Shown here in pieces: positions 1,983 through 57,762 of a DNA stretch of 64,000 nucleotides (position 1 is the stretch's first letter; every line of letters starts with the position of its first letter). The DNA is taken from positions 93,465,001-93,529,000 of the forward strand of contig NC_072800.1 of the NCBI RefSeq assembly GCF_028583425.1, in the 5' to 3' direction. The position numbers were made by a program, and so were the translations under genes. A model generated the notes under the pieces. The model had not been told where the DNA came from. It was given only the letters and a program-made list of their open reading frames with translations, and did no database searches. Source of the DNA: Eublepharis macularius (lineage: Eukaryota > Chordata > Lepidosauria > Squamata > Eublepharidae).

Positions 1983-2302
1983 AAATAGTAAAGAGTCCAG
2001 TAGCATCTTTAAGACTAACCAATTTTATTGTGGCATAAACTTTCAAAAGCCACAGCTCTCTTCGTCAGATGCAACTTTATTGTAGCATAAGCTTTCGAGA
2101 ACCACAGCTCTCTTCGTCAGATGCATCTGACCAAGAGAGCTGTGGTTCGCGAAAGCTTATGCTACAATAAAGTTGCATCTGACGAAGACAGCTGTGGTTC
2201 TCGAAAGCTTATGCTACAATAAAGTTAGTTAGTCTTAAAGGTGCTACTGGACTCTTTACTATTTTGCAACTACAGACTAACATGGCTAACTACTCTGGAT
2301 CT
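1983..2302. mobile_element. PLE foldback with four hammerhead-like units
   Basis: The minus arm starts at 'taaagagtccagtagc', then come two minus-strand units (about 2030-2075 and 2079-2130) and two plus-strand units (about 2130-2170 and 2172-2225). The plus arm ends in 'ctactctggatct'. The flanks are 'aatcccagagtt' (1971-1982) and 'aatccctgagtt' (2303-2314), a 12-bp target duplication with one mismatch. Confidence 0.85.
2083..2120 (-). ncRNA. Hammerhead ribozyme core match in PLE
   Basis: On the minus strand this reads CTGACGA, then stem II GAGAGC / loop TGTG / GTTCTC, then GAAA, then a tiny stem III GC-TTAT-GC, then TA. All catalytic-core positions of a hammerhead (C-U-G-A-N-G-A, G-A-A-A and U-H at the cleavage site) are present. 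Stem I cannot be drawn convincingly from the adjacent bases, so cleavage activity is uncertain. Confidence 0.55.
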
Positions 2303-2551
2303 AATCCCTGAGTTGTCCTCCAACCTTTCACTCACATTCACTATTTCTTTGCTTCCAGGGCTCTTCGGGATGAGGCTGTGTGATTCCAGGGCAGGCCTGT
2401 AACCCTTCCCCACCAACAGCATCGAATAAGTCCACATGACTTTGGGTCTGCAGCCAGGACTGATTTTTGAACCTTTCTATTGCCGCCGCTGCTGAAGAGT
2501 CAGCTGTTCTGGCTTCAGCTTCCCCCGGCTCCTTTTGGCTCAGGGACCCCG

Positions 2552-3023
2552 ATGTTTTCCTCGGGAGCGGAGAGGGAGAGAGACAAATGGGGACCTCGGT
2601 TTGACTCTCCCCCCTCCACTTCGGCCGCTGCCTCTCAGGCCAATGCGACTGGCCGGAAAAGGAAGGCCAACTTCTCCAATGACGAGACGGAGACTCTGGT
2701 CTGGAATGTAGTGCGGCACTTCAGCGCCCTGTATGGATCCGAGTCCTTCCGGGCTCACCCCGTCCGGCGGAAACAGCTCTGGACGCAAATCCAGAGCCGG
2801 GTCAACTTCCTGGGCTACACCGAACGGTCCATCGATGACCTCAAACACAAGTGGCGAGACCTGAGGCTGGACGTGAAGAAGAAGATAACGGCCAAGAAGC
2901 CCCCTCTTGTACACCGGCCGGGGCCCCCCCACAAGCCGCGCCTCACTCCGCTGGAGAAGATGGTGGCCTCCACCTTTCTGCAGCCCACCCATGATTCAGA
3001 ACCGGAGATCGTCCTGGATCCAG
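2552..3023 (+). CDS. Myb/SANT-like DNA-binding protein, exon 1 (MYPOP/NAIF1-like)
   Basis: First coding exon of a three-exon gene (2552-3023, 5543-5746, 7912-8993; 585 aa). The ATG at 2552 is the first in frame. Residues about 39-112 form a Myb/SANT-like trihelix domain of the type in MYPOP and NAIF1, with the spaced tryptophans W51, W77 and W101 and a basic 'KHKWRDLRLDVKKK' helix. This implies sequence-specific DNA binding in the nucleus. A basic GRKRK at 34-38 could serve as a nuclear signal. The exon ends with a GTGAGC donor in phase 1. A possible acceptor at about 2358 (cttccag) hints at an upstream non-coding exon. The product name is by family resemblance; the exact orthologue is not identified. 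Confidence 0.8.
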
Positions 3024-3032
3024 GTGAGCTGA

Positions 3033-3292
3033 GGAATAGTAATATTAATAATATCATTCGATTTATATACTGCCCTTCAGGACAACTTAATGCCCACTCA
3101 GAGTGGTTTACAAAGTATGTTACTATAATCCCCACAACAACAATCACCCTGTGAGGTGGGTGGGGCTGAGAGAGCTCCAGAGAACTGTGACTAGCCCAAG
3201 GTCACCCAGCTGGCTTCAAGCAGAGGAGTGGGGAATCAAACCCGGCTCTCCAGATTAGAGTCCTGCCACTCTTAACCACTATACCAAACTGG
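3033..3292 (-). repeat. Type 1 SINE next to a splice donor
   Basis: A near full-length minus-strand type 1 SINE, read from its (ATT)n tail ('aatagtaatattaataat', from about 3033) to the head ('ccaaactgg', 3292). It begins about 10 bases into intron 1 of the Myb-like gene, straight after the GTGAGCTGAGG donor. Confidence 0.8.
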
Positions 3293-3792
3293 AAGTAGCA
3301 TTGATGCCCCTGCGCAGGGGTAGCTGTGACTAAGGAGGTGCTAAGAGGATTGTGCCACAGACAATAGACTAGGCAGGCTCACCCTGTCCAGCAGAAGTCG
3401 CTCTGGACACAAATCTAAAGCCGGACCCAGAGCTCTGTCCTCGAGGCCTTTATTTGCCTGTTCGTTTTCCTAGGAAAGATCCTTACAGGTCAAGAAAGTT
3501 TGGAGATATGTAGCCCTTGATCTCTGCAGCACAGGTCAAGGCTGTTCTGGGGCCTGAAGCGTAAAATCCCAAACAGCTCTCCCCTCCCCAATCAAGGCAG
3601 GGCATGCACACGGTGGGGTTGGAGGGGGGTCGCTCCACCTTGCTGCTGCCAGGCCGAATCCTCTCCTTCAGGCAGCTGCTTCTCAGAGTAGAGCTGCCTC
3701 ATTTATAAAACCATTTTGATCCAAGACTCCCGAGTTGGTTCTGCTGATGTGCGGTTTTTCCCTCATGTGTAGAGATGGGGGGGGGGGCATAA

Positions 3793-3925
3793 ATCAAAGG
3801 CAGAACCCCCTGCTTTGTATGCAGAAGGCTCCGGGTTCAGTCTCTCTGGCATCTCTACTAAAAGACTCTTGGGCAGGAGTGTTGTGAAAGACGCTCTCCT
3901 GCCTGAAGGCTCGAGTGGAGCAGAC
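3793..3925 (+). repeat. tRNA-derived SINE (type 3)
   Basis: The sequence contains 'tttgtatgcagaaggctcc' with B-box-like 'gggttcagtct', then 'gtgaaagacgctctcctgcctgaag'. It matches the SINE at 1-345 in the opposite orientation. It lies in intron 1 of the Myb-like gene. Confidence 0.5.
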
Positions 3926-4073
3926 CATCAGCAGATCTAAAGGGACCAGCTCCTTGGGTGCAGATTTCCTTCTCTGTAACTTAACCAAACATCTTGCTTA
4001 CTTTGCTAATGTTTTGCTAATTCTGTCTCTTCCTTCAGGGGCATTGGAGAGCCTTTCCCCATCCTGTAAATAT

Positions 4074-4312
4074 TTGGTGCAGTGGTTAAGAGCGGCAGGA
4101 CTGTAATGCGGAGAGCCGGGTTTGATTCCCCACTCCTCTGCTTAAAGCCATCTGGGTGACCTTGGGTCAGTCACAGCTCTCTCAGCCCCGCCCACCTCAC
4201 AGGGTGATTGTTGTAGGGACAATAATAGCACACTTTGTAAACTGCTCTGAGAGAGGCGTTAAGTTATCCTGAAGGGCAGTATATAAATTGAATGTTGTTA
4301 TCATTATTGAAA
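4074..4312 (+). repeat. Type 1 tRNA-derived SINE
   Basis: It runs from 'tggtgcagtggttaagagcgg' through the B box 'ggtttgattcccc' and the core, to 'tatataaattgaatgttgtt' at the tail. It is intronic in the Myb-like gene. Confidence 0.75.
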
Positions 4313-4830
4313 ACTCTTCTCTCCCTGCTGTGGTCTGCTTTTCTCCACTGCCCTGTTACAATTTTGTTTTATTTTAACATGATGGATCTTGATGCAGGCA
4401 TTTTTCCACCATATGTGGTGATTCCGCCCCCCCCCCCAAATGAATGGTGCTTCATTTTTTAAAAAAGTCCTTTCATGAAAATGAGGTGGCGAACTTGATC
4501 ATCTCGAATGGATGAGCAAATTGGTCAGCTAAGATGGGTTCTTGAGGCCCTAAATCAGATTGGTGGTGTTGCTCAACATTTTCACCCATAGTTTTAAATG
4601 ACGGTGGACAATTCTCGAGTACAGGCGATATTGTGTGTAGGCACAATATTGGCTCTTTTTCTCTAAACTCAGCAGGGGAGGCAAGGCCTTTGCAATCTCA
4701 CTGCTCTGCTCAACATTTTATGGAGCTTTAGGTCCTATAAAGACTGAGGAACGCGCCACAGACTTTGTGGATATTGCAAAGACGGGGAACTAGATGCTTC
4801 TGGTGGTCCCATGCTGCAAAGCGTTCCTAG

Positions 4831-5125
4831 AATTATAGAATCATGAAAGGAACCTCTAGGGGTCATCTAGTCCAACCCCCTGCAGAATGCAGAAAATTCA
4901 CAAATACCTCCCCCCGCCCACTCTCACCCAGTGACCCTTACTCCGTGCCCAGAAGATGGCAAAACACCATCAGGATCTCTAGCCAAACTGGCCTGGGGGA
5001 AATTGCTCCCTGATTGCCAAAGTGGCAATTGGCATTACCCTGGGCTTGTAAAGGGGGCCACAAGAACTAAGGACTGATGGAACCCTTTTTGCTCTCCCTC
5101 TCATGATCTGCCTAGGTCCTCTACC
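4831..5125 (-). mobile_element. CR1 LINE 3' end fragment
   Basis: In minus orientation it ends in 'attctatgattct'-type repeats, here seen as 'agaattatagaatcatg'. It carries the CR1 landmarks 'ggggtcatctagtccaacccc', 'cccagaagatggcaaaac' and 'caattggcattaccctggg'. Other pieces of the same subfamily: 11270-11605, 23690-23925, 43646-43872 and 46262-46640, all minus. Confidence 0.75.
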
Positions 5126-5542
5126 GTTTAATTACGCAGAATGACTGAAAAAAAGAAATCTTTTGTTTTGCAATCTTCCAGGAATAAATCGTGTTTGTGG
5201 ATTAAACTGTTGTCCTCCTGGCAGAGACTCAGGGAGCTAATTCATTTTGGCTAATGTGTGTGGGGAGACTGGTAACTTATGTTCAGGAAATGGTTTATAG
5301 AGTCCCTTTGCGGCATTCAGCTCTATGTCAGCTCAGATGCATTCGACTAACAGCGGTACTCTGCTCCGGCACAGGAACCATCCACCGATGCAAGAGGCTC
5401 CTCTGCTGCACGTGGAAGCGCTTCGTGCGTGGGCAGAAGCCTCCTACCCCCAGAGCAAAGCGCCGCTGTTAGTGGGATGGTCCCTTGGGACAGGCAGCGC
5501 TTAAGAAAGAGTCCTGAAACCGGTGGTTGTCTTTCCCTGCAG

Positions 5543-5746
5543 AGATTTTCTTCCCGGGGGCTTCCAAGCAGTCCTTCATGCCCCCGCAGCCCGGAGCCAG
5601 CCACCCCGGCATCTACATCGACACCAACGGGCAGCCCTCCTCCCTGCCGGCCATGGAAGGCTCCACGGTCCCACGGCTGGCTGGCCAAAGCCCTGATCCG
5701 TCCATGATTTGTGACTACAGCAGAGGGGAAGGGCAGAGTAGTTCAG
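5543..5746 (+). CDS. Myb/SANT-like protein, exon 2
   Basis: The acceptor ccctgcag precedes the exon and the donor GTAGGGG follows it. Both boundaries are phase 1 and the exon is 204 nt, so skipping it would keep the frame. It encodes a proline/serine-rich linker, residues about 158-225 (starting EIFFPGASKQSFMPPQPG), with no recognised domain. It joins exon 1 to the large exon 3. Confidence 0.75.
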
Positions 5747-6015
5747 GTAGGGGTAGCAATACATGGCGCAGGAGCCGCTGGGGAGAAGGAAATCAAGAGA
5801 CAAGAGGGTGGGGGGGCGCTCTGTGGTCTTTGTTCTGGGCTTTCTTCGGGCCAGGTAATTGCCTTTTTTTGTCTGGCGCTGTCAGGACTTGGAAATGGGA
5901 AAGCGCGGAAGAGACTGGTCTAGCAGATGAGAGTCGAAATGAATCTATATTGCTAAAGCAAACTCCATTTCTGAGAGGGTGGGGGGCAGAGCAAGAGTGG
6001 GCAACTAGCGTAGTT

Positions 6016-6288
6016 GTAAAATAGTGAAGAGTCCAGTAGGACCTTTAAGACTAACCAACTTTATTGAAGCATAAGCTTTTGAGAAATACAGCTATCTTTG
6101 TCAGATGCATCGTCAGTTTTCGAGAACCACAGCTCTCTTCATCAGATGCATCTGACGACGCACATGACGAAGAGAGCTGTGGTTCTCCAAAACTTATGCT
6201 ACAATAAAGTTGGTTCATCTTAAAGGTGCTACTGGACTCTTTACTGTTTTGCAACTATAGACTAACACAGCTAACTCCTCTGGATCTA
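6016..6288. mobile_element. PLE foldback with 10-bp target duplication
   Basis: A minus arm (gaagagtccagtagg) and a plus arm (ending ctcctctggatcta) flank central hammerhead-like units. 'tagcgtagtt' (6006-6015) and 'tagcatagtt' (6289-6298) flank the copy and differ at one base. It lies in intron 2 of the Myb-like gene. Confidence 0.8.
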
Positions 6289-6309
6289 TAGCATAGTTAC
6301 GTAATGGCC

Positions 6310-6440
6310 AGGATGTCTGAGTAGGACTGGAGAAATGCGGGTTCATATCCCTACTCTGCCATCCACCGCCTTGGGTCAGTCGATCTCTCTCTCTCGGCTT
6401 AGCCTTCCGTGCAGGGTTGTTGAGAGAATAAAGTGGGGAA
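6310..6440 (+). repeat. Divergent type 2 SINE
   Basis: A weak tRNA-like head with 'gggttcatatccc', then 'ccttgggtcagtc' and 'gcagggttgttgagagaataaagtgggg'. This matches the type 2 SINE layout but is badly decayed. Confidence 0.4.
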
Positions 6441-6571
6441 AGGAGAGCTGTACGTGCTGCACTGAGGAAGGGAGGGAAGGGTCAAAATGCACTCTTGCCT
6501 TCAGGCCCCCACTGTGGGTTCTCTGGAGGCATGTGGTCGGCCCCTGCAGGAAATAGGATGCCCGTCTCAGA

Positions 6572-6862
6572 ACTGAATTTCACAAGACGAATTACTCGGG
6601 ACGCTCAAGTGAAGGGAAAGATCACTCCTCAGAGGGTTTGTTAATTTCCTCTTTGCCTCCCCAAAGGCGCTGTCAATTATTAACAAACCCTCTGTTAATT
6701 TCACCTCTGTAGGGAGGTGAAATTAACAAGCCCCCTGAGGAGTGATCTTTGCCAGCTCTGTAGAGAGAGGTGAAATTCAAACTACGCTTCCCAGCTAACA
6801 TTGCGTCTCCCTTCACTTGAGCGTCCCCGTGTAATTCGTCTCGTGTAGTTTAGCTCTCAGTG
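6572..6862. mobile_element. Palindromic MITE (gagacgaattacac family)
   Basis: The two ends are inverted copies: 'acaagacgaattactcggga' on the left and 'cccgtgtaattcgtctcgtg' on the right. Inner inverted parts around 'gaggtgaaattaacaa' and 'gagggtttgttaatttcctc' also match. It encodes no protein. Relatives: 18532-18905 and 60472-60680, and a decayed half at about 61798-61965. Any target duplication is at most 2-3 bp, unlike the PLE foldbacks. Confidence 0.7.
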
Positions 6863-7911
6863 GCCTTCGGTCCAGTGCAGCAAGGTGCTTCTTGCGTCCT
6901 CAAGGAATAGTTTCCTTTGCCGCTGGTCCTCTCTTACTGACCCTCCGTGGACCTTCTGTAATCTGGCTTTGGCAGTCAACGTAGGCCGTTTCCGTGCAAT
7001 GGTAATTCCTGGATCGGCCAGTCAGGGCTGGAGTTAGAGCTGAGGCGCTCACTGACATTTATCCTGAAGTCCCACCAGGCCAAATTTTGTTTGGCGCTTC
7101 CTTGTTCCCGAGCCACTGCAGTTCCACCCAATCCTCTGCCGGGCGCTTAAGCCCACCGATTTCAAAGGGACGAGGCACAGCTAGACCTGCAGAGGTCTGA
7201 GCTATTCGTTGCACCAGCCTCTGCATTGCTAAGCAATTTGATGCAAATCACTGAAATTCCTTGCGGTCCTGGGAGAGGCTGTGGTTTGGGGTAGAGCCCC
7301 CCTGAATTTGCTTGCAGAGGACTCATCAGTTGAAGGATCTCAAGTGAGCAGGGGGCTGAGAAGGCCGTTCTCTGCTGCCGATCAGAATAGATAATACTGT
7401 GGCAGGGGGAACTAAGGGTCTGTCTCTGTAGATTGCACAGGACGCTTTGCTGTTTATATGGTTTGATCTCGCAACAAAATGGTGAGCTACGACCATTGAG
7501 GCGCTGAGAGACCGAATCCTTCATCCTTCTACAAGAAGTCTAGACCGGGATGGGCTGTGATTGGGCTCTTCAGTTGCCTGATGGGCTGTTAGATGGAAGA
7601 GAGCAGAGACTCGGTCTCGGCTGCTCCAGAGAACAAGGCTCCATCAAATGGGCTGAAGTTTCAGAGAAGCGGGAACGAGAGCCATACTTGTGCATAAGGG
7701 GAAGGCAGACTTGGGTGGAACAAGAGGAACGTCTTAACAGTAAGAGCATTTTGACAAAGGTACCAGCGACCTTGGGCACACGGGGTTTCCAGTACTGAGC
7801 AAGGAGCTAGACTAGACAGCCTCTAGGTTCCCTTTACACTCTGGGATTCTGGGAGTGCTGGGCTTGCCTGAGAACCTGCACTGAGTGCCTCTTCCCTTGT
7901 TTCTGTTTCAG

Positions 7912-10039: not shown

Positions 10040-10056
10040 ATTATGCCTTAAAGTTT

Positions 10057-14625: not shown

Positions 14626-14626
14626 A

Positions 14627-16203: not shown

Positions 16204-17957
16204 CTATTTGTAGCTGTCGGGAGAGATGCGTTTTCCACACGAGTCCTTGGTGGGCCGACTCATCTCTTCTTGACTGCCAGGAGGTGGCCGTGGCTTCTGC
16301 TCAATATAAATTCTTTCTAACAGGCAGAAACACTTCTTGGAGGCATCTCCATTCCCACATTTGGGACAGGTGAGAAAATCACCCTTGTCCCTGTGGTGCT
16401 GGAGGTGACGGTAACCCGTACTCTTGAAGCTAGACAGTTTCCCGCACCAAAGGCACCTGTACCTCACCCCCGCATGCCACGCCTTGTGGGCCGAAAAGTA
16501 GGACTGGGTGAAGCTTTGGCCACATTCGGCACATACGTGGAGTTTCTTCTCTCCTTGCTTCCTCCGTTTCATGGCAAGGGCCGGCACGCCAAAGTCCTTG
16601 CGGCGCTGACCGCTACGTGACCTTTCTTTCAGATGCATCCGAAGGTGCTTCCAAATGCTGCCTCTGCAGCCGAAACTTTCTCTGCAAAAAGGACACGGGT
16701 AGCAGTTGTCTTTTGCATGAGTTTTCACATGCATGACCAGCTGCCACTTGTACACAAACCTCTTCCCACATTCCAGGCACTTGTGCAGCTTCTTTGTCAC
16801 GCCAACCGCCACGCTGCCCCCAAAGACGCTCGTCGGGTGGACGCTTTTGTTGAGCCCTGCAGCACTCCAGTGCTCCTCCGCTCTGTGCCTCCGCTGATGT
16901 TTGCAGAGGCTTTGCCTAGAGGTGAAACGCTTCCCGCAATCTGAGCAAGCCCACGGAGCACAAGATGCTTGCGAAGGGGGGCAGGAGCTGTTCCCACTGG
17001 CCCTCGGGACCGATGTGTTATGTGCCTTTGTGTCAGAAGCCTTTTGGTGCTCTGCTGGGGTCCCGCTATATCTGTATTTCTGCAGCCTCGCCTTAAGGCA
17101 GTATCTGTAGTGCACCTTCAGGTTCGTTTCTAATCTAAACCGCTGCCCACACTGAAGGCACGAATAGGGCTTCTCCTGCATGCCCTTCGCTTCCCAGTGC
17201 TGGCTCTTGTCCTCCTGCAAACCCGCCCCGCTGCTCTCCACCCTCTTTCCAAGGTGAGGTGCAAAATGGAGCAGGAGCGAAGGTTCGCAGACGCAGTTTT
17301 CCCCACACGGAGCACAGCTATACAGCGCTTCATCCAAGTGGCGTTCTTCATGCATCTCAAGGTCACTCTGGTATGGAAAAGTGACACCACACTGGATGCA
17401 CAGCCAGCGCCTCACCTCGCCATGGGTTTTCTGGTGCTGCAAAAAGCCAAGGTACCTGTGGAAGCTCTCCCCACAGCCTGCACAGAAGTACCACCTCTCC
17501 TCCGACTGGCTCCCGCGGCACGTACCCAAGCCGTCGGCACCCCCGCTGTCCACACGTGTACGACTGTGGATCCTCTGATGGCTCCTTAGATACCGGATGC
17601 CAGGAAAGCAAATGCTACACTTGGGGCAAGGAAGGGACAACTTCCGCAAACTGACCCTCTGATGTATACGAAGCAGCCCTTTCATCCGGAACCTCTTGCC
17701 ACATTCTCTACACTGGTACGGCTTTGGTGCCTCCTGGGAATAGGTGGAGCTGGCTTTCGCAGGCACAGCCTTTTCCAGGGGTGGACGGTGCTGGTCTCGC
17801 CTCAGGCTACCCTGCTGCATTACTGGCACTTGCTCAGGCGGTGGTGCCCCCAGATCACCATATTGAGCTCCCTCTTCCTCGGATCTGCCGCCCACCATCT
17901 TGGGAGGTTCCAGCATCTCGGCATGTCGTTTAGAGGTTACCTGTCTAAATCTTTCAT
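16204..17957 (-). CDS. KRAB C2H2 zinc-finger protein, zinc-finger exon (ZNF425/ZNF786-like)
   Basis: Third and last coding exon of a minus-strand gene (28581-28558, 22117-21991, 17957-16204; 634 aa). The acceptor ccagcag precedes it, phase 1, matching the KRAB exon. After an acidic linker it encodes about twelve C2H2-type units from residue about 130. Good ones include 'LPCPKCSICF', 'WYFCAGCGESFHRYLGFLQHQKTH', 'WACSDCGKRFTSRQSLCKHQ' and 'HKCLECGKRFVYKWQLVMH'. Several are degenerate: the first lacks a histidine, one is C2HC, and the last lacks both histidines. Linkers are long and irregular rather than TGEKP-like. This suggests an old, poorly constrained array. Predicted role: nuclear DNA-binding regulator. 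Confidence 0.8.
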
Positions 17958-18905: not shown

Positions 18906-18937
18906 TGTCCTGCTTTAGGCCTTCTAAGGACTTCACA

Positions 18938-19070: not shown

Positions 19071-19074
19071 GTCC

Positions 19075-19670: not shown

Positions 19671-19967
19671 ACAGAACCAGAGGAGTTAGCCCTGTTAGTC
19701 TGTAGTCGCAAAATAGTAAAGAGTCCAGTAGCACATTAAAGACTAACCAACTTTATTGTAGCATAAGCTTTTGAGAACCACAACTCTCTTCATCAGATGC
19801 ATCTGATGAAGAGAGCTGTGGTTCTCGAAAGCTGACGATGCATCTGACAAAGAGAGTTGTGGTTCTCGAAAGCTGACGATGCATCTGACAAAGAGAGCTG
19901 TGGTTCTCAAAAGCTTATGCTACAATAAAGTTGGTTAGTCTTAAAGGTGCTACTGGACTCTCTACTC
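19671..19967. mobile_element. PLE foldback with exact 13-bp target duplication
   Basis: The minus arm opens with 'aaccagaggagttagccctg' and the plus arm ends 'ggtgctactggactctctactc'. Three plus-oriented hammerhead-like units follow the centre. 'tagattctggctc' occurs at 19658-19670 and exactly again at 19968-19980. Confidence 0.9.
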
Positions 19968-26204: not shown

Positions 26205-26369
26205 AGAACCATAGCTCTCTTTGTCAGATCCATGTGACGCATGCAGGACTCTGACAAAGAGAGCTGTGGTTCTCGAAAGCTTATACTACAATAAAGTTTG
26301 TTAAGTCTTAAAGGTGCTACTGGACTCTTTACTATTTTGCAGCAACATAGTGAACTCCTCTGGATCTAT
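26205..26369. mobile_element. Short PLE foldback
   Basis: A small minus part ('agagaaccatagctctctttgtcagat') joins a full plus arm ending 'gaactcctctggatct'. No clear target duplication was found. Confidence 0.65.
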
Positions 26370-29110: not shown

Positions 29111-29408
29111 CTCTGCACAAGCTTTCGAGAACCACAGTTTTCTTTGTCAGATGGTTCTCGACCAGTCTTAAAGGTGCTACTGGACTCTACACATTTGCTA
29201 CTACGGCTAACTCCTCTGGATCTACAACTTTATTGTAGCATAAGCTTTCAAGAACCACAGCTCTGTCAGATGCATCATCAGCTTTCTGACAAAGAGAGCT
29301 GTGGTTCTCAAAAGCTTATGCTACAATAAAGTTGGTTAGTCTTAAAGGTGCTACTAGACTCTACTATTTTGCAACTACAGACTAACTCAGCTAACCCCTC
29401 TGGATCCA
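29108..29408. mobile_element. Cluster of two PLE foldback pieces
   Basis: 29108-29222 has a truncated minus unit joined to a plus arm ending 'ctcctctggatct'. 29222-29408 has a further minus unit and a plus unit with a complete plus terminus. They lie back to back with a third foldback at 29405-29607, which suggests repeated insertion into the same family. Confidence 0.65.
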
Positions 29409-29607
29409 GTAGAAAAGAGCAAGAGTCCTGTAGCACCTGTAAGACTGACAAAATTTGTGCTGGGGTAGCAGCTTTTGTGAGTCACAGCTCACTTCTTCAG
29501 GTATCTAAAGCTCCTACCCTACCACAGATTGTTAGTCTTATAGGTGCTACTGGACTCTTGCTCCTTTCTGCTGCTACGGGCAGACAAACAGGCTACCCAT
29601 CTTGATC
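29405..29607. mobile_element. Diverged PLE foldback (subfamily C)
   Basis: Left arm 'gagcaagagtcctgtagcacctgtaagac' and right arm 'gtcttataggtgctactggactcttgctc' are inverted. On the minus strand the unit reads 'ctgaagaagtgagctgtgactcac', keeping a GTGAG/CTCAC stem where the common family has GAGAG/TTCTC. The terminus 'gggcagacaaacaggctaccc' also differs from the common family. Confidence 0.65.
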
Positions 29608-29879
29608 TATCTCCATGAGAGTTACTCCAGTGGACTCAGACTGGAGTAACTCTGCTTAGGATTGCATTCTTAGAGCAGGACCCCCTAAGGTGCTTTGGAA
29701 ATAGGGCCGGTATGTGGGAGGAGCACTGGAGGCAAAGCATAAGAGAAATCCCCCCTTAAGATTCTGGCCACGCTTGACGTCCGTGTGGGGTGCCATGTGG
29801 CCAGCTCAGAAAGGGCATGTCTGTGCCTGGCCCATCTTCTTGCAGAGCAGTCACAGGAGGCCAGCATGCGACCCAATGT

Positions 29880-30085
29880 GCCAGCGCATTAATTCACAAC
29901 CTGTTAAAAGCCTGATGTTGTCAGAAGCTAAGCAGGGTCGGCCTTGGATAGTAATTAGATGGGAGATCTCCAACAAAGACCAGGATTGCAGAGGCAGGCA
30001 ATGGCAAACCACCTCTGGTAGTCTCTTGCCATGAAAGCCCCACCAGGGGTCGCCATATGTCAACTGTGACTGGAGGGCAGGAGTT
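29880..30085 (+). repeat. 5S rRNA-derived SINE with Bov-B tail
   Basis: 'gtcagaagctaagcagggtcggccttggatagt' and 'gatgggagatctccaac' (5S-like), then 'gcaggcaatggcaaaccacctct' and the 'gggtcgccatatgtcaactgtgac' tail. It is more diverged than the copy at 20445. Confidence 0.75.
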
Positions 30086-31189
30086 CATTTACCTGATCTT
30101 GACCATTCTGAACAGAAAGGCGTTAACTTTTTTTTCACAAGGAGAGCGTTCAGATGAGATCATCTTGTTGTCTTGAGTCTTTAAGAGGATTTCCTATTTG
30201 GTGCAAAGCAGTGGATAGTGGGTTTGGGGCCAGTTTTAATTGGTTGGACAGATTATAAGAGTGTGCTGTTGGACCCGATTTCCGCTCTTTTGTAAACTGC
30301 CCTCAGTGCAGTATGAGTGAGGCACAGTTTTCAAAATGAATACAATGACTAAGTAAGATAGATTGAGGTCCACCACCGCTACTCTTGGTTGCCTCCCAAG
30401 ATAACTACTTGGGAAAACACCCAAACTTGCTTCTTGGCCAACCCTTTATCAGTTGTTAGTCTGAAATCGGTCTCGGCTGTCTTGCAACAGAGTTTTCCAG
30501 CAACTTTAAGCCACCGAAACAAGAAATGAATAGTATTCTGTTTTAATTAAGATTTCATTGTTTGGTGTTTTTAATTAAATCCGGGGAAGTGCCTCTTAAA
30601 TACCTCTGAAGTTGTAATGTTTTACTCCTGTTCTGTTTTATTTTAGGCCTATCTTATATTTTTGCATTCATAATGTTATGCGTAAATAAACATATGCATT
30701 AATTGTCCATTTCATTTGGACTAAAACATTAGAACGGAAGTGTCCTTCATGGAAAATCCTGTTCCTTTGCCGTCCCCATAGTCACACACATTGCTCAACA
30801 CAACTTTGATTGTCTATTGTACCTCCTCAATAAACTATAACCAGACAGAAAATGTCACAGTTGAAAATAATGGTTCCAGCTTGGCTGTATGATGTCAAAA
30901 ATAACTGGTGATACATCAGCAGTGTCAGTTTAAACTAACTATACAGGATACGCGAGTGAAAACATATTGATGGAGACAGGCGATCATTCAGCCACATTGT
31001 AACCAACCACATGCTCAACCAATTGCCTGGCCTGATTTAAGCAGCTGATACCACTGATGCCAAAGGACTGCCCTGTGAGATTTTGCACTTCACCCGTTTC
31101 CCCCCACAAGCTCAGTGTTCCACGAGGGAGCGTCTGTGGCCCCTGAACATCCCATCAAAGCTAACCGTTCAGCTTCATTAGATCTGGTG
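30086..31189. other. Intergenic, nothing recognised
   Basis: A weak L2-like tail lies at about 30285-30360 ('tgtaaactgccctcagtgcagtatg'). The remainder is moderately AT-rich, with no exon or repeat landmark on either strand. Confidence 0.3.
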
Positions 31190-31410
31190 TAGTGTGGTGG
31201 TTTGAGTGTCGGACTAGGATCTGGATCAGGTTCGAATTCCCACTCTGCTGCGGAAGCTTGCTGAATAACCCTGGGCCAGTCCCAATGCAGTCTAACCTAC
31301 CTCACAGGGTTGTTGTAAGGATAAAGTGAAGCAGATGGGAATGATGTCAGCCACTTTGGGTCTCCATGGGGAAGAAAGGCAGGGTATAAGTGAGGCAAAA
31401 TAAAACCAGT
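31190..31410 (+). repeat. Type 2 tRNA-derived SINE
   Basis: 'gtggtttgagtgtcggactaggatc', B box 'ggttcgaattccc', 'aacctacctcacagggttgttgtaagg', and the L2-like tail 'gccactttgggtctccatggggaag...gcagggtataagtg'. Confidence 0.65.
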
Positions 31411-31459
31411 GTGAATTTTCTTGTTGCAGATCCTTATGCAAAGGAAGGGAAAGGCAGTG

Positions 31460-31501
31460 TATGAATGAATGAATGAATGAATGAATGAATGAATGAATGA
31501 G
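31460..31501 (+). repeat. (TGAA)n microsatellite
   Basis: About ten perfect tandem copies of a 4-bp unit, directly after the SINE tail region. Confidence 0.95.
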
Positions 31502-31942
31502 TTCCAATGCAGAGCAAAAATGCAGTAAGATTTTCCTCGCCAATGACAATAATGCTTGCAACCATCAGCTTAGTGATGTGGGGTTCTTCTTGGGGATTTA
31601 CCACTTGCTGAGGGTTGTTTGTACTCACTTAGGGGCAAGGCGGCAGAAGAAGAAAAACAGAGGAGGAAAACAGAGGAACGTATCACGTTTCAGAACAGAA
31701 AGATCAGCCGAAGTACTTTTCACTGCACCAATTTGCTGCTTTCGAGGTGACGTGAACTGGCCCTGCAAATATTATCATACTGCTACGGATCCCACAAAAT
31801 CAAAGGCAACTTTCCAGCTCTGGATTCTGAGAAGCAAACCGTTCATGCATGAGTTCTTTGGGGGCACTTGAGGAAGAGACGAGGGAATGCCACCTCTTCC
31901 TCACCTGGCCATGGCTGCATTCAGATGTCATAAACAAGACTG

Positions 31943-32654
31943 AACCATGAATCGGCCAGCAGAGTCACCAGCACAGGTACCAGACCCTGCAACAGACCCA
32001 GATGCCAGCTCTGCCCCTATATCTACCCAGGGAATACAATTACAGGACCCAATGGCATCAACTACACTGTCTCTGGCTCTTACAGCTGCTCATCCTCCAA
32101 TCTGATATATGCCCTCATGTGCCAACAATGTCCATCTGCTCTGTACATTGGACAAACCAGCCAACCTCTGGGCAAAAGAATAAATGGACACAAATCTGAC
32201 GTTAAAAATGGCAACATCCAGAAACCAGTGGGAGAACACTTCAATCTACCAGGACACTCCATCTAGGACTTAAAGGTCACTGTAGTTCAACAGAAGCCTT
32301 TCAAAACCAGAATCCAAGGGGAAGCTGCTGAATTGGAATTCATATGTAAATTTGATTCAGTCAGGCTTGGATTGAATAGAGACTATGAATGGTTATCTCA
32401 TTATCAGAAGTAACTGACTTCATTATCAGAAGCAAACTGATCCCATTATCAGAAGCTACTGATTGCATCTACTCCCCCTCCCCTCTCCACCTATATCTCT
32501 GACCAGTTTCTTCTTACCCTCCACGCATCTGACGAAGAGAGCTGTGATTCTCTAAAGCTTATGCCACAATAAAGTTGGTTAGTCTTAAAGGTGCTACTGG
32601 ACTCTTTTCGATTTTGCTACTACAGACTAACACGGCTAACTCCTCTGGATCTAC
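31943..32654 (+). mobile_element. 5'-truncated Penelope-like element with GIY-YIG domain
   Basis: This is the copy that identifies the family. About 32090-32400 translates in plus orientation to a PLE GIY-YIG endonuclease: 'LIYALMCQQC', then 'ALYIGQTSQPLGKRINGHKS', 'PVGEHFNLPGHS', and a C-terminal 'LEFICKF...LGLNRDY'. After it come tandem 'cattatcagaag' repeats, a C/T-rich stretch, one hammerhead-like unit (about 32525) and the shared 3' end 'ctcctctggatct'. 'aaacaagactg' flanks it at 31932-31942 and 32655-32665. It is a broken, 5'-truncated copy without reverse transcriptase. Confidence 0.85.
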
Positions 32655-44254: not shown

Positions 44255-44400
44255 GCAGGTGGGTAGCCCTGTTAAGTCTGTAGCAGCAGAACAAATTTCG
44301 AGTCCTGTAGCACTTTAGCATAGCTTTTAAGAGTCACAGCTCATTTCATTAGCTTTGACTCACAAAAGCTTATCCCCTGGGAAAATGCTATTGGACTCAA
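44255..44400. mobile_element. Diverged PLE foldback (subfamily C-like)
   Basis: 'ggtgggtagccctgttaagtctgtagcagcagaac', 'gagtcctgtagcactttag', then inverted 'gcttttaagagtcacagctcatttcat' and 'ctttgactcacaaaagctt', ending 'gctattggactcaaatttc'. Strongly decayed. Confidence 0.5.
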
Positions 44401-45780
44401 ATTTCTTTTCCTTTTTTTATTTTGAAAAGACAAAGTAATAGTATAGGGGGTAAAGAAAAGAGGAAAAGGGATTACATCATGGTTATATGGATCAAAATAA
44501 TTATATACAACAAAATATTTTAAACAAAAAAGTTTTCTTCCCAGCATCTCCTCCATTAAATTTTTATGATACTAAATACTGTAATACTTGCTTACGTTAG
44601 AATACATTTATAGTCAACATTTTCGGTTTCAAATTCCTATTCAAATATCTGTATTCAATATATTTCAACATTTATATTCAACATTCAACATTTTAAGTTT
44701 CCGATTTCATAGCTAATCTGTTTTACACCTATATGATTAATTTCAACCTTACTGCATATTCGATATTACACAGTTTTGCCTCTTCTACCTTGTAACGAGC
44801 TTTTGCCCGTGTCTGAAACTAAGCTTCTACTTAACCAAAAGAAAAATGTATCTTTCTCTTGGAAAGCTTTCAGCTACTAGTTCTCAGACCTGTCAAACAG
44901 CTGAGTTCTTTGAACCACCTGTTTATCAGTACATTTATTTATATAGGGTTCGATATTGTTTTGCAACTCTTTATCAAACACACAGACACCTATCTAGGGT
45001 TTATTTCACTTTATTGAAAATACACCCTAGTTTTTTAATGAAGCAAGTAATTAAAATATAAATGGTTATTAATATGAATCCTATAAAAACAGAACACAGA
45101 AAGGCAATAAGAAATAAGTTTGCTAACATTTCCTAATAAATACCATGTTTAACATAATCAAAGTTTCTATGAAATGCATAGGTAAAGATAAAATTCTCTC
45201 CTAAATTCTCTCAAGAGATTACTTCCATCAGAGCTCTGACATTCTATTTGCATTTTTATAAGTCATCATATGCAAATATCTAAGAGCTTTTCAAGTGATA
45301 GCACAAACAAACAATAATTGGTTTGATGCTTCATTGAATATTCATAGTTTCTATTGTATAACCTTCCAATTAGTAAAAAATGACGTTATACTCAAACTTG
45401 CTAAACAAAACTGTAAATCTCTGAGAAGTGTCAGAAAAAGTTAAGTTGAGAGATCACTATTGGTTGAATCTCTGATAGAGGAACATTAATCTCGATAGAG
45501 TCCACTATTTTAATTAACTGTCAAAAGATTAAAGCACACCTGTTAGAATTACCTAACACTTAGAAAAAAACACAGACGGTTCATGCAAAGTTTGAAAGTT
45601 CATCTAGAATACAAAAGCTTGGCCTAGTATTGCTCAGTATTGATTATTGTCATCTGCTTTTATCTATATTGGTGCAACAACCTAACTACTATAGCTTGGA
45701 TTCAAATTTCAATATGCATGAAGGAGTTAAAGCAGACCACATTGTAGAAAAACAGCCTCAACACAAACTGCGCAAGCAGG
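44401..45780. other. AT-rich block in ZNF282 intron 6
   Basis: About 1.4 kb far richer in A and T than the neighbouring GC-rich intron sequence. It has many short T-runs and no SINE, CR1 or MITE landmark, and directly follows a PLE remnant. It could be an unrecognised LINE 3' UTR or simple AT-rich sequence; no coding frame supports either. Confidence 0.4.
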
Positions 45781-48148: not shown

Positions 48149-48664
48149 CTGCGGAGGAGAGAGAAGATTAGAGAAGGATTGAGGCTCACTAGAGCGGGCT
48201 GGCGTGCTTCGTTGCCGCACTCAGCCTTAAGCTCACTTGATCACGTCAAGCTTCAGACTATTTGCAGTATTGTGACTACTTATTTTATTCGTTTTATTTC
48301 TTTATTTTTAACGTTTATTAGCCACCTTTCCTCAAAGATGCTCAAGGCGCTTACAATGCAAAATATAAACAGCATAAATATATTAAGAAACAACAGTTAA
48401 CAATAAAAAAACAACAATCAAGTCCTGCCTCGCAGGGTTGTTGTTAGGAATGCTAATGAATACATTAAAGCACTGCATCAGTGACAAGAGCATTCTGTGC
48501 CATCTGGTTGCCTATCAGCTGCCTCCATATTGCGGGGAGGCTCTGGGTTCCGTTCCTGGCCTGCAGGCCCCCAGCTGCATCTGTCTGCTTACATTTTTAT
48601 CCTTCTCCAACAAGCTCAAGGTTCTCCCCTCCCTATTTTATGCTCACAACCACCACTCTGAGAC

Positions 48665-48893
48665 ACAGAATAGCAAAAAGTCCGGTAGCTCCTTTAAGAC
48701 TAACCAACTTTATTGTAGCATAAGCTTTTGAGAACCACAGCTCTCTTCGTCAGATGCATCTGATGAAGAGAGCTGTGGTTCTCGAAAGCTTATGCTACAA
48801 TAAAGTTGCATTTGACAAAGAGAGCTGTGATTCTCGAAAGCTTATGCTACAATACAGTTGGTTAGTCTTAAATGTGATACTGGACTCTTTACT
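48665..48893. mobile_element. PLE foldback in ZNF282 intron 4
   Basis: Minus arm 'aaaagtccggtagctcctttaagac' (48678-48752), then two plus-oriented units (48755-48806 and 48807-48855) and a plus arm ending 'ggactctttactatttt'. It ends about 85 bp short of exon 4. No convincing target duplication. Confidence 0.8.
48760..48797 (+). ncRNA. Hammerhead ribozyme core match in PLE
   Basis: CTGATGA, stem II GAGAGC-TGTG-GTTCTC, GAAA, mini stem III GC-TTAT-GC, then TA as the predicted cleavage dinucleotide. Every core base matches, and another unit follows directly in tandem. ZNF282 is transcribed from the other strand, so its pre-mRNA would carry the complement of this unit. Confidence 0.55.
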
Positions 48894-48978
48894 ATTTTAA
48901 AACTCCTCAGGTGGGTCTTGAGCAACACCACCACCATTCTTCCTACCCAACAACTCCCTTTGCGACAGTTTTCCTCAC

Positions 48979-49984: not shown

Positions 49985-50280
49985 GACAAATAAGTGGATA
50001 CTAGATCAAATCAAGCCTGAATTCTCCCTAGAAGCTAAAACGACAAAACTGAGGCTGATCCTGGAAAAGGCAATAATGCTGGGGAAACTGGACGGCAGTA
50101 GGAAAAGAGGAAGCCCTAAAACGAGATGGTTGGACTCAATAAAAGAAGCCACGTCCTCCAGTTTGCAGGATCTGAGCAAGTCTGTTAAGGAGAGGACGTT
50201 TTGGAGGTCTTTCCTTCATAGGGTCGGCATAGGTTAGAGGTGACTTGACGACACATCACACACACACACACACACACACG
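49985..50280 (+). mobile_element. Bov-B (RTE) LINE 3' end and (CA)n
   Basis: In plus orientation the frame around 50035-50235 reads 'KTKLRLILEKAIMLGKLDGS', 'RKRGSPKTRWLDSIKEATSS', 'LSKSVKERTFWRSFLHRVG', the C-terminal tail of a Bov-B/RTE reverse transcriptase. It ends in 'gtgacttgacgacacatcacac' and a (CA)n run at 50254-50280. A second tail is at 60118-60315. Confidence 0.8.
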
Positions 50281-52623: not shown

Positions 52624-52750
52624 CTTGGCTGAGCAAAGATTCGTAGTTCTCCTTTACAAGGTTACTGTAGAGGTCTTTTTGCCACTCGGCCAAGTTCTTC
52701 CATTCTTCAGCAGAGAAATATACAGCGATGTCGACAAAAGTCACTGGCAT
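52624..52750 (-). CDS. ZNF282: ZNF282 exon 3 (KRAB-A box)
   Basis: 127 nt, acceptor ccattccag, donor GTATAA, ends in phase 1. Residues 143-185: 'MPVTFVDIAVYFSAEEWKNL', 'AEWQKDLYSNLVKENYESLL'. It agrees with human ZNF282 ('VPVTFVDIAVYFSEDEWKNL...LVKENY'). The LVKENY variant in place of VMLENY is shared by the DUF3669-KRAB group, whose KRAB boxes are reported as weak TRIM28 binders. Confidence 0.92.
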
Positions 52751-52986
52751 CTGGAATGGGAAAAGGATCCATGCATATTGGCAATTGGCTGCTGCCTCTG
52801 ACATCAACGCAGAGTCCTTTATAAGTGCGAAACATCGAACTGATGTTCAGGGATTTTATGAGGCAGGAAAACAGGGACACCTTAGACTTTCAAAAATAAT
52901 TATTCTCTGGCCGTCCCAAACACTCACAAAACTTTTTGGAACAGGTTGTCTAAAGACACAACACAGTCTGCGTGCACATAAAGCCT

Positions 52987-53505
52987 AACAACAACAACTG
53001 CACTTATATACCGCCTTTCTGGACAGAGCGGTGAATAAAGTCAGTGCTATTATTATCCCCACAACACAGCTGGGCTGAGAGGACGGGCTGACCCAAGGCC
53101 ACCTGCTGAGATCACGGCAGGCAGGAGAGGGAGTCGAACCAGCAGAATCTTGCATCTCAACTACTTAACCGCTATGTTATACAGCAGCTCTCTGCAGAAA
53201 ATCCTGTGAGATGGGAACACTCCTGGACAAATTCATTGTGGAACAACAACAACAACAACAACAAAATTCAATTGATATACTGCCCTTCAGGACAATTTAA
53301 CGCCCACTCAGAGTGGTTTACAAAGCATGTCATTATTATCCCCACAACAAAACACCCTGTGAGGTGGGTGGGGCTGAGAGAGCTCCGAGGGAGCTGTGCA
53401 AGACTCAAGGCCACCCAGCTGGCTTCAAGCGGAGGAGTGGGGAATCAAACCTGGCTCTCCAGATCAGAGTCTCGCGCTCTTTACCACTACACCAAACTGG
53501 CTCTC
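52987..53505 (-). repeat. Two type 1 SINEs in tandem
   Basis: 52987-53175 is a diverged copy and 53242-53505 a better one, both reversed with (AAC)n tails. They sit in ZNF282 intron 2. Confidence 0.7.
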
Positions 53506-53798
53506 CCTTTCGTTGCCTCCCTTGGGAAGCCTCGCTTTCTCCCTGGTCATTCTTTCTGCTTGGAAGTCCCTCGCAGACTTCCTGCGCGGTTCCATTTCTG
53601 CTCCTCCCCACCCGCCCCCTCCCCAAACAGTCTTCCTTTCTCTTGGCCGGTAGCATCCGCAGACCTTCAGCTGCCTTCATTCCCCCCAGTCTCACCCCCA
53701 CCCCCGCTCTCAACCTAGGCCCAGTTCAGCATCGTTGCTGCAGGTGGCCCAGTCTGACCCCTCTGACCCTTCCCCAAATGCCCTCTCCTGATGTTTAC

Positions 53799-54200
53799 CT
53801 TGGGGATTTCCCCCTTGGACCCTGGTGGCAATCTTAGGACCCAAAAGTTCCGGTTCTTGAGGAGGTTCTCCATGTTCTCCAGCCTCCTCTGGAGCAGCCC
53901 GTACTCCTGGATCAGGGTCCCCAGGACAGCCCACTTGCTCTCCAGCTGGTTCCCAAACTCCATGGCCGTCTTCTCGCAGTCCAGGAGTTTCTTCTCAGCG
54001 TTCCCAGACCGGCCCTCCAGGCTGAGCAGCCGCGTGGCCAGCAAGTCGATCTTCCTCTCCATGGCCTGGACAGTGGCCACCACGCTCCAGAGGGAGGCCT
54101 CGGCCGTGTGCAGCTGCGCTTCTCGCATGTGGCTCAGCTCAGGGACCAGCGGGGGCTGGAGGGGCATCAGGTGTTGGGCCTCGACGTTCCATTCCTGGAT
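53799..54200 (-). CDS. ZNF282: ZNF282 exon 2 (DUF3669)
   Basis: 402 nt, acceptor ccccaaacag, donor GTAAAC, phase 0 at both ends. Residues 9-142: an '[17 protein letters not shown]' lead, then DUF3669 from about 39 with '[20 protein letters not shown]', '[20 protein letters not shown]', '[20 protein letters not shown]' and '[20 protein letters not shown]'. The domain is a predicted helical bundle placed before KRAB in ZNF282, ZNF398, ZNF746, ZNF777 and ZNF783. The '[13 protein letters not shown]' lead best matches ZNF282. Confidence 0.93.
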
Positions 54201-55193
54201 CTGTTTGGGGAAAGGAGGCGGGGAAACATTAATTTTATTTATTGGATTTTTATACTGCTTCTACATCAAAAAAGGCCCAAAGCGGTTTACAACATTAAAA
54301 ACGATTAAAAGCATCGATAAATGCTGCATATTAAAACTAAAAACATCACTACAGTTCAAGGATCCCACAAACACAACCAACAGTAAAAGAACAACCAGGT
54401 GGCAAAGATTCCACGATTGATCGTGGCAGGTTAAAAGCCTGCTGAAACAATTCCACGCTGTGGAAGGGCTAGAGAAAGAGGGAGCTCCCCAAGGGTGGGA
54501 GAGCGGGCCAAAGGCTCCACCAGCTTCACAGAGGTGGAAGGCAGTTGGCGGATCATCCTGGGTGAACGGCAGGCAAGAAAGGCGAGCCCATACTTTTCCC
54601 TGGCAGAGGAGTTCATTAGGCCTTCCCCTCCTGTAAAGACTGCAGCATCCTGGGAGCAGGAGAGGGACCACTCACTCACGCTGTTTCTTTCTAATGCTCT
54701 TTCACAGACTCCTAAAAGGTAGGGTGCAAGGGAGCGGAAATCCCTTGATATCGGATCGTCAGAATGAAAGCTCCCGCAGCTGCTCCATACTGAAGGCATT
54801 GAATGGGGAGGCTCGGTTCCTTTATTTATTTACTTATTTATTTACAGCCCACCCTCCCTGCAAATGGACTCAGGGCGGGTTACAGTGATAAGAATTACAA
54901 CAGATAAAACAATAAAATCACAGACTCGATTACCACAAACACAATTTCCAGTAACCTAGATGGGCCCCCTTCCCTTTTCCTTGCATGCCATACACATAAA
55001 AAAAGGTGGAGGTCTGAGTTAATAACTCTGATCATGCATGGGGGGTGGGGAACAGATGATCATATAAATCATACCAATCCAAGAATATCAGTGTAGGGAT
55101 GCAGAGTGAAAATTGTTGGGGGGGCACTATGGCAAGGAATGTGGTTTCCGAGCAGACTTGACCAAGGCTCCTCTCTCTTTAGAAAGGGGGAAA

Positions 55194-55420
55194 TCAAAAA
55201 GAGTCCAGTAGCACCTTTTAAGACTAACCAACTTTATTGTAGCATAAGCTTTCAAGAACCACAGCTCTCTTCGTCAGAATCACAGTTCTCTGCGTCAGAT
55301 GCATCTGACGCAGAGAACTGTGATTCTCGAAAGCTTATTCTACAATAAAGTTGGTTCGTCTTAAAAGGTGCTACTGGACTCTTTCTGATTTTGCTACTAC
55401 AGACGGCTAACTCCTCTGTG
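55194..55420. mobile_element. PLE foldback with 15-16 bp target duplication
   Basis: Minus arm from 'aaaagagtccagtagcacc', plus arm ending 'acggctaactcctctgtg'. 'tttagaaagggggaaa' (55178-55193) and 'tttagaaaggggaaa' (55421-55435) flank it and differ only in G-run length. Intron 1 of ZNF282. Confidence 0.88.
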
Positions 55421-55842
55421 TTTAGAAAGGGGAAACTCTCTGCTTGGACCAAAGTGCTCACAGATTCTAAAGCAGCAATTGGGTGGGAGCGCCTAAGAGG
55501 GGACACAAGACATCAGTGGAAGGAACTTGTGCCTCTGCCTGCCCTTCCCCCCATGCCATCTCCTCCTCGCTGGTTCTGCATGGACCTCGAGAAGCAGGAG
55601 ATGTAACTAGCTCTGCTCTGCTCCAGAACTGGCTGCAATTCAGAAGAGACTGTATGCAAACACCAGGCCAGAAATGCACCGGGTTTCATCAAAACTAAAA
55701 GGTAAGCCCCTGCTCGTACCTGTTCGTCCTGGAGTCTGTGCTGTTATTAAAGATTGGAGGGGCAGTTTCCCTGGTCACAACCCATCTGTACTATCTGTAC
55801 TGGGGTTGTGAAGGACCCAGTGAGTCATGGCTCAGAGGATCC

Positions 55843-56062
55843 TAGGTTGCCAACTCCAGCCTGGGAAATTCCTGGAGATTTGGGAGCAGTGCCTGTGGAG
55901 GGGAGAATCTGGGGACGGATTTTGCCTAGAATCTGTGGTATGTCACAGCATTTGCTCCCTGAAGATGCCATTTTCTCCAGGGGACTGATCCCTGCAGTCA
56001 GGAGAGCTGTTGTAATTCCGGGAGATCTCCAGGTTCCACCTGGAGGCTGGCAAACTTGGGGG
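55843..56062. mobile_element. MITE of the gttgccaacctccag family
   Basis: 'aggttgccaactccagcctgggaaattcctggagatttggg' at the left, 'gggagatctccaggttccacctggaggctggcaaac' at the right, with 'gccattttctccaggggactgat' inside. A type 2 SINE remnant (56118-56325) follows. Confidence 0.65.
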
Positions 56063-56329
56063 TCATGTGCACAGGGCAGTGAGATCACTGCATGGGGCAC
56101 CCCTCCTAGAAGACAACTTCCAGAGGCAGTGTGGGGTAGCAGTGAGGGTGCTGGACTACGGCCAGGGAGACGGGGGCTGCATTCACACATTGGTGGGGAC
56201 CTCTATGCACAAGCTGGTCCCATTGCACAGGGCAGAGCACTGTCCAGTGATGTGGCTTGGGCTCCCCTCTCTGCCTGGGGCCAGTGCTCTGGTCCTAGCC
56301 TACCTCGCACGGGTGTTGTGAGCATAAAA

Positions 56330-57310
56330 AGGAGCTCCGCCTCCGCCCACCTGGCTCCTCCGAGGAAGGGTCAAAAGGCTCCAGGAGGGCAACCAAGGAG
56401 CATCCTCCAGCGGTCCAGAAAGTTGCCGGATCCGGGCCAGCGGCTCAGCGCAGCCTCGCCTGCCCCCCCCCCGCAGCGCATCCCCCGCCCGGAGAGTTCG
56501 GGGCCCCCTTGCAGCAGACCCGGCCCGCAAGGGGGGGGGGGGGTAGAAAAGCGCCGCCCCCTCAATCCCCGGGCCCTGCGGCCCTTTCCCTTCCCGCCTC
56601 CCGGCCGATGCAGCCCGCAAAGCAGCAGCAGCAGCGGGGGGAGGGGGCAGCGAGCCCCCCCATGAGAGCCCCCTCCTCCCCCAGGAGCACCCCGACCCCC
56701 CCCCCGGTGGCCCAACTAAGACCCCAGCCGGGGGAGGGGGCAGAGCAGCCGAGGCCCCCGCCGACCCCCCACCCCCCCACCCCCCCGGGGTCCCGCTCCC
56801 CCCGCCCAGCCCCGATCCGCGCGGGGCCGCTCACCTGGGCAGGGGCCCATTCAGCCATGGCCGGCGGCGGAGGGGCGGCGGGCGCGGCGAGGGGCGATCG
56901 CGGCTGGGCGCGGGCCGGGGGCGTCCCGGGGCGGCGGCGGAGGAGGAGGAGGCGGCAGGGGCGGCGGGCGCGCGGCGGCGGCGGCGGCGGCGGCTGGTTA
57001 CATCGGGAGGAAGCGCGCCGGACGCGACTGTAGCGATTTGGCGGAAAAGAGGCGGCGAGCCGCGGGGGCTGGGCGGAGGCGCGCCCCCTGCAGGGCCGAG
57101 GCGGCGCCGCACCCCCCGCACGCACCCCCCTCCCCCCCGGCATGCCGACGTCAGGCTCGGCGGGGGCGGGAAAAGCCCCTCGCGGCGGGCGGGTGGACGG
57201 GCGGCGACGCGCGGCGGATGCGCAGCAACGGGGCAGCCCGTCCACACGGGGCAGGCGGCGGGAGGGGAAGGGCCTGGAGAAGAGGCGCGAGATTCGGGCC
57301 CAGCAGAGAC
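56330..57310 (-). promoter_or_regulatory. ZNF282: CpG island and promoter of ZNF282
   Basis: About 1 kb of extremely GC- and CpG-rich DNA with G-runs (56531-56542) and (CGG)n tracts (about 56928-56995) around exon 1. No TATA box. The long frames on both strands are artefacts of the composition. A PLE foldback at 57367-57762 bounds it upstream. Confidence 0.8.
56835..56858 (-). CDS. ZNF282: ZNF282 exon 1
   Basis: Eight codons MAEWAPAQ, then GTGAGC donor in phase 0, leading to 'IQEWNVEA' of exon 2. Human ZNF282 reads 'MAEGMPPMQAQEWDMDA' at the same place. The seven exons total 1626 nt, an exact frame of 541 residues, which supports the whole model. Human ZNF282 is longer (about 670 aa) because of an extra N-terminus and a Gly/Pro-rich linker absent here. 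Confidence 0.88.
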
Positions 57311-57366
57311 CGGCTAGCTGATGGAGAAGCCTCCGGGAATAAGTTTGGGCGCCTCCATCGGAAGAA

Positions 57367-57762
57367 GGGAAAGAGTCCAGTGGCACCTTGAAGACTAACC
57401 CACTTTATTGTAGCATAAGCATTCGAGAACCACAGCCCTCTTCGTCAGACGCAGCGTGCATCTGACAAAGAGAGCTGTGGTGTATCATCAGATACATCTG
57501 ACGAAGAGAGCTGTGGTTCTTGGAAGCTTACGCTACAATAAAGTTGCATCTGACAGCTGCAGTTCTCGAATGCTGACAATGCACTTGACAAAGAGAGCTG
57601 TGGTTCTCGGAAACGTATGCTACAATAAAGCTGCATCTGATGAAGAGAGCTGTGGTTCTCGAAAGCTTATGCTACAATAAAGTGGGTTAGTCTTAAAGGT
57701 GCTACTGGACTCTTTACCGTTTTGCAACTACAGACTAACATGGGTAACTCCTCTTGATCATC
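57367..57762. mobile_element. PLE foldback with a long tandem array of hammerhead-like units
   Basis: Minus arm from 'agagtccagtggcacc', one minus unit, then about four plus-oriented units of roughly 50-80 bp in varying decay, and a plus arm ending 'gtaactcctcttgatc'. It lies about 510 bp upstream of the ZNF282 start codon, at the edge of the CpG island. Confidence 0.8.
57637..57674 (+). ncRNA. Hammerhead ribozyme core match in PLE
   Basis: CTGATGA, GAGAGC-TGTG-GTTCTC, GAAA, GC-TTAT-GC, TA: identical to 48760-48797 and complete at every core position. It is the last unit of the array. Confidence 0.55.

Follow-up and report, generated by a model that had tools for sequence, protein, structure and literature searches.

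The window analysed here is a 64,000-nucleotide (nt) stretch of the Eublepharis macularius genome (RefSeq assembly GCF_028583425.1, contig NC_072800.1, positions 93,465,001 to 93,529,000, forward strand), in which a short repeated unit resembles the hammerhead ribozyme of Penelope-like elements (PLEs). Iterated nhmmer searches over the window returned 46 hits to the repeat. A preliminary description, made from the letters alone, had reported an exact 38-mer at 2083-2120 (minus strand), 48760-48797 and 57637-57674 (both plus strand); all three were recovered, together with the near copies it mentioned (22 matches with at most three mismatches, against none in 100 dinucleotide shuffles). Here, we argue that the unit is a minimal type I hammerhead ribozyme of a squamate PLE, with stem I formed by GCAU/AUGC, stem II by GAGAGC/GUUCUC, and a predicted cut at GCUU^AUGC, a reading to which we give a probability of roughly 0.78. 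It draws on the sequence, fold prediction, a GIY-YIG neighbour, and a layout similar to that of a known element, and from these we infer cleavage, the pairing of units, and a role.

The repeat unit and its retroelement context

The GIY-YIG domain through which the repeat had been assigned to a PLE was recovered on profile search (PF01541, about 32102-32245, E value 5e-4), with a score of 20.8 bits, below the curated PF01541 cut-off of 22.6. The stop-free piece carrying the domain had five protein hits and was 61 to 67% identical to three proteins of the agamid lizard Phrynocephalus forsythii, a similarity that points to a squamate host. A protein encoded by a 345-bp record labelled Listeria monocytogenes was 77% identical over 65% of the piece, and that record is probably reptile DNA contamination. 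A hammerhead unit lies at 32526-32568, about 280 nt downstream of the GIY-YIG fragment; in this one copy bearing an open reading frame (ORF), the order is GIY-YIG fragment, unit, and tail, which places the unit within the repeat region of a retroelement with a GIY-YIG domain. The AC-rich tail of this module (32525..32653) ends at about +118/+119 from A9 by hand count. No reverse transcriptase (RT) domain was found in the plus-strand frames of 30000-32000, the only part of the window searched for one, and the GIY-YIG-bearing copy therefore looks 5'-truncated.

An alignment was built from 29 of the 46 hits (24 of the main family and 5 of a second subfamily). The other 17, picked out by eye, were fragments or variant units, or in some cases decayed copies of almost full length; 12 of them were later placed without gaps (the fragment at 26226 being one base off in this placement), and the remaining five were fragments lacking C3. 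The preliminary formula for the unit had omitted one base, as the DNA reads CTGANGA-A-GAGAGC, with one additional, unpaired A separating A9 from helix II. This base is A in 28 of the 29 aligned copies and G in the other, such that helix II is joined directly to A9 in none of them.

A hammerhead core consists of C3 U4 G5 A6 N7 G8 A9, G12 A13 A14, A15.1-U16.1, and H17, and the consensus of the aligned copies has these letters. The earlier statement that the unit agrees with the core rules at every catalytic position stands for 8 of the 41 placeable copies and fails for the other 33, which carry some core change. Seven aligned copies retain every one of the 11 scored core letters and have A, C, or T at position 17 (in the fold proposed below), and six of the seven also have a complete stem I and at least five stem II pairs; among the 12 hits placed without gaps, one retains the scored core (C3 at 27897) but forms two of the four pairs of stem I, whereas position 17 is G in the variant units. 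All four stem I pairs are present in 16 of the 29 aligned copies. G8 and G12 are most often lost, and both lie within CpG in the main-family consensus, as would be expected for methylated dead copies; most copies in the window look decayed.

Predicted fold and cut site

The preliminary description drew a hammerhead that has a stem III of 3 bp (AGC/GCU, loop UUAU), a cut after UA, and no good stem I beside the core. A stem I can nonetheless be drawn, for GCAU stands directly before CUGANGA (C3) and AUGC directly after GCUU (position 17), part of that strand having earlier been used in stem III. RNAfold minimum-energy folds of segments that hold one unit each and begin at 48756, 57632, and 32522 all pair GCAU with AUGC, enclosing stem II, which is GAGAGC/GUUCUC in the first two; in the segment from 32522, where G12 is T, stem II is shifted by one and incorporates the extra A. 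Each of the three folds also contains a single isolated G-C pair spanning the core, and none has a stem III of several pairs. Pairing CAAU with GUUG over the joint between tandem units, as an alternative stem I, was rejected on inspection by eye, since three bases ahead of C3 would then stay unpaired.

Read as a hammerhead, the RNA would pair GCAU with AUGC as stem I and GAGAGC with GUUCUC as stem II, around a catalytic core of CUGANGA plus the extra A, and GAAA. Stem III would be shrunk to A15.1-GC-U16.1 only, and the cut is predicted at GCUU^AUGC, 6 nt upstream of the one first placed after TA. Neither the 3-bp stem III nor that cut site is supported, although covariation (below) does not decide between the folds.

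A type I hammerhead requires stem I, which the fold with a 3-bp stem III does not provide. Structural descriptors gave five matches for either fold and none in 200 Markov windows, with C3 at 48760, 57637 (+), 2120, 2068, and 769 (-) for the new fold (a descriptor composed after the sequence had been seen), and matches at 48760, 57637 (+), 55277, 2120, and 769 (-) for the earlier one. Stems I and II of the new fold pair in 85.9% of cells across the aligned copies, a level reached by 5 of 500 shuffles; the earlier stems pair in 87.7%, with 54 of 500 shuffles reaching that pairing and 25 of 500 the covariation score. Compared singly, the 3-bp stem III is paired in 82.8% of cells versus 79.3% for the new stem I. 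In the unit at 2033..2072, two of the three pairs of the 3-bp stem III are kept, and in the five second-subfamily rows, one or two remain. In stem I, a single pair shows a change of both partners: it is C-G in most rows and U-A in 2 of 29, and these two rows belong to the second subfamily. In stem II, two pairs are changed on both sides, in one row each. Window covariation is weak and does not tell the folds apart. The fold with GCAU/AUGC is preferred because it provides the stem I that had been lacking, is the single-unit minimum-energy fold, and agrees with published Penelope hammerheads, which are described as lacking helix III (PMC6155905, PMC7761336); the fold with a 3-bp stem III we regard as improbable.

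Coordinates of the units, copies, and neighbouring features are given in Table 1.

Table 1. Features of the repeat family and its retroelement in the window (position 1 is the first base of the window)
Feature	Position	Strand	Details
Unit, intact core	48756..48795	+	Stem I 48756-48759 with 48792-48795; C3-A9 48760-48766; extra A 48767; stem II 48768-48773 with 48778-48783; GAAA 48784-48787; predicted cut 48791/48792
Unit, intact core	57633..57672	+	Stem I 57633-57636 with 57669-57672; predicted cut 57668/57669
Unit, intact core	2085..2124	-	Stem I 2121-2124 with 2085-2088; predicted cut 2089/2088
Second tandem unit, 52 bp beyond the 2085..2124 unit	2033..2072	-	Core and stem I intact in new fold
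Unit, core and stem I intact	734..773	-	C3 at 769
GIY-YIG endonuclease fragment of Penelope-like element	32102..32245	+	In-frame stop after it at 32264
Module 3' of GIY-YIG fragment	about 32524-32653	+	Unit (G12 = T), AATAAA, AC-rich tail
Head-to-head copy	48661..48906		Tail, reversed unit, two units 52 bp apart, tail; centre 48756/48757
Head-to-head copy	1959..2302		Two units per arm; centre 2123/2124
Head-to-head copy	19673..19966		Two 41-bp variant units, GCTTATGC to GCTGACGATG, G at position 17
Second, more decayed subfamily copy	29459..29506	-	CTGAAGA; stem II GTGAGC with ..CTCAC

Tandem units and evidence against activity

Several units are spaced 52 bp apart (nhmmer; e.g., 48757/48809 and 10256/10308). 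AGCU is self-complementary, and a double hammerhead can therefore be drawn from two units. Two units, in tandem or on two RNAs, could share a 4-bp AGCU stem III and act as a pair, and cleavage would cut multimeric transcripts of the element.

Several results weigh against the hammerhead interpretation. At gathering thresholds, Rfam gave no hits over the window; none of the 40 matches with E values up to 10 was a hammerhead, and a search of 48750-48860 (111 nt) with E values up to 10 likewise returned no hammerhead and one weak snoRNA match (E value 8.5). The covariance-model check proposed with the preliminary description thus came out against the hammerhead call; we give this null result less weight because the Rfam hammerhead models describe hammerheads with three stems. 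Covariation for the new fold barely exceeds that of shuffles (23 of 500 reach its score) and is no better than that for the earlier stems, each of the five second-subfamily rows breaks two or three of the four stem I pairs, and the consensus hammerhead core has no counterpart of the extra A. Folding energies are ordinary relative to shuffles, with z scores of -0.65, -0.90, and -1.28 for single units and -0.99 and -1.44 for two tandems. The double hammerhead is 8.6 to 11.3 kcal/mol less stable than the best, noncatalytic fold in three tandem stretches and also weaker than two separate monomer folds; for the consensus dimer, it lies 12.4 kcal/mol above the best fold. According to these models, a tandem without a helper would mostly adopt other folds, an instability that would fit a need for protein, yet counts as evidence against activity. 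In PAc (Poseidon of Anolis carolinensis), the hammerhead is reported to show no cleavage in vitro without the element's protein, hammerhead mutants still insert in vitro, and no RNA-seq reads ending at the cut site were found (PMC11167929).

Part of this evidence favours a competing view, in which the unit is not a ribozyme now or recently. Here, the terminal-repeat hairpin with AATAAA would have been kept as a signal for reverse transcription or processing, and its hammerhead-like letters would be a legacy of an active ancestral element. The lack of an Rfam hammerhead match, the core changes in 33 of 41 copies, the more stable noncatalytic fold competing in tandem, and the behaviour of PAc (mutants that still insert, no RNA ends at the cut) all agree with it. 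Any old repeat, however, is expected to have dead copies, core letters and stems occurred together 0 times in 200 random windows, and the PAc hammerhead does cleave when its protein is present (PMC11167929). We consider this explanation unlikely and retain the minimal hammerhead.

Head-to-head copies and comparison with known systems

Fifty module hits, grouped at gaps of no more than 60 bp, formed 18 clusters, of which 13 run from a minus arm to a plus arm with tails outward and 5 are single hits. The count was taken from strand order because the palindrome finder missed inexact inverted copies. The cluster at 29115-29609 has the minus/plus arrangement three times in succession, and that at 57359-57923 has an extra minus piece at its end. 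The sequence CAGATGCATCTG, with at most one mismatch, marks seven cluster centres (exact in five; 0.16 expected by chance), and two further one-mismatch matches, at 16630 and 48572, lie outside centres. The seven centres read CAGATG|CATCTG, or are one change away, and lie where stem I has its 5' edge. The layout would fit reverse transcription primed on both nicked strands, as for PAc in vitro, or self-priming of the type proposed for Adineta vaga.

A variant joint, AAAGCTGACGATGCATCTGAC (at most one change), occurs at 6100-6120 (-), 19828-19848 (+), 19869-19889 (+), and 29265-29285 (-), with G at the predicted position 17 and stem I pairs broken, yet it has been copied. Its presence four times at three sites suggests that some arrays probably share a source. 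The second, more decayed Penelope subfamily was seen at 29406-29609, 44256-44409, 58258-58392, and 61511-61581, head to head in three of the four; several of its copies have CTGAAGA, and its stem II is near GTGAGC/..CTCAC.

A reading as a microRNA-like or inverted-repeat hairpin element arises from sub-threshold Rfam microRNA matches at head-to-head copies. None of these reaches its gathering score, and several sit on head-to-head centres on both strands, as with any long inverted repeat; the microRNA readings were rejected as resting on sub-threshold matches, and their probability is close to negligible. A long inverted repeat with few mismatches at 60506-60641, with a sub-threshold Rfam MIR3440 match, is apparently unrelated to the Penelope repeat.

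It is conceivable, and in our judgement very improbable, that the short head-to-head copies form a nonautonomous, retrozyme-like squamate element. In such a scheme, tandem hammerheads lacking stem III would cut transcripts into pieces of 52-nt periodicity, and a Penelope protein would reverse-transcribe them from both nicked strands, with the two cDNAs joined at the TGCA that lies at the stem I edge. The joint would remake the GCAU strand, and the ribozyme could outlive each inverted insertion.

Minimal type I hammerheads of PLEs were reportedly described by Cervera and De la Pena (2014) and by Lunse, Weinberg, and Breaker (2017). Exact-pattern scans of viral and genome contig collections for the unit found no loci, a literature search with literal sequence strings of the repeat gave no match, and one on hammerheads in turtle Penelope gave nothing related, judged by titles. 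The minimal hammerhead proposed here would extend the known minimal Penelope hammerheads by one family, which is probably squamate and has an extra base in its core. It would also show how easily stem I is taken for stem III in such ribozymes, moving the predicted cut by 6 nt, which would mislead rapid amplification of cDNA 5' ends.

PLEs carry minimal hammerheads without helix III (PMC6155905), which occur in tandem and possibly act as dimers (PMC7761336), and a 2020 review calls their in vivo activity and role a mystery (PMC7761336). The unit described here shares with them the PLE repeat region, the tandem units, the absence of helix III, and the suggested dimer action; by their descriptions, it differs in the extra A that follows A9 and precedes helix II. 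An A at the same place is found in the plus-strand hammerhead of the plant viroid CChMVd, between A9 and G10.1, where it goes with a moderately decreased trans-cleaving rate (PMC3705267).

A similar layout is that of PAc, whose hammerhead cuts 26 nt after the start codon, with C3 and G8 before that codon, and whose reverse transcription starts in an AC-rich stem-loop 111 to 118 nt into the ORF (PMC11167929). Our unit likewise belongs to a GIY-YIG element of a squamate and has C3 and G8 upstream; its predicted cut falls at base 26 when A9 is taken as the starting point, or at base 25 from the extra A, by hand count. The AC-rich tail ends at a position similar to the PAc reverse-transcription start, a comparison of layouts rather than sequences. 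As in PAc, new copies may arise by reverse transcription starting in this tail, about 118 nt downstream. Unlike PAc, the element has no intact ORF that we could find here. Penelope of Adineta vaga has inverted pLTRs with a palindrome at the junction, and head-to-head is its most frequent inverted arrangement (PMC3846280). Head-to-head copies with a palindromic junction are common to both; those of A. vaga are drawn as larger and bear ORFs, whereas the copies here consist of short modules in which the junction is flanked on either side by a hammerhead unit.

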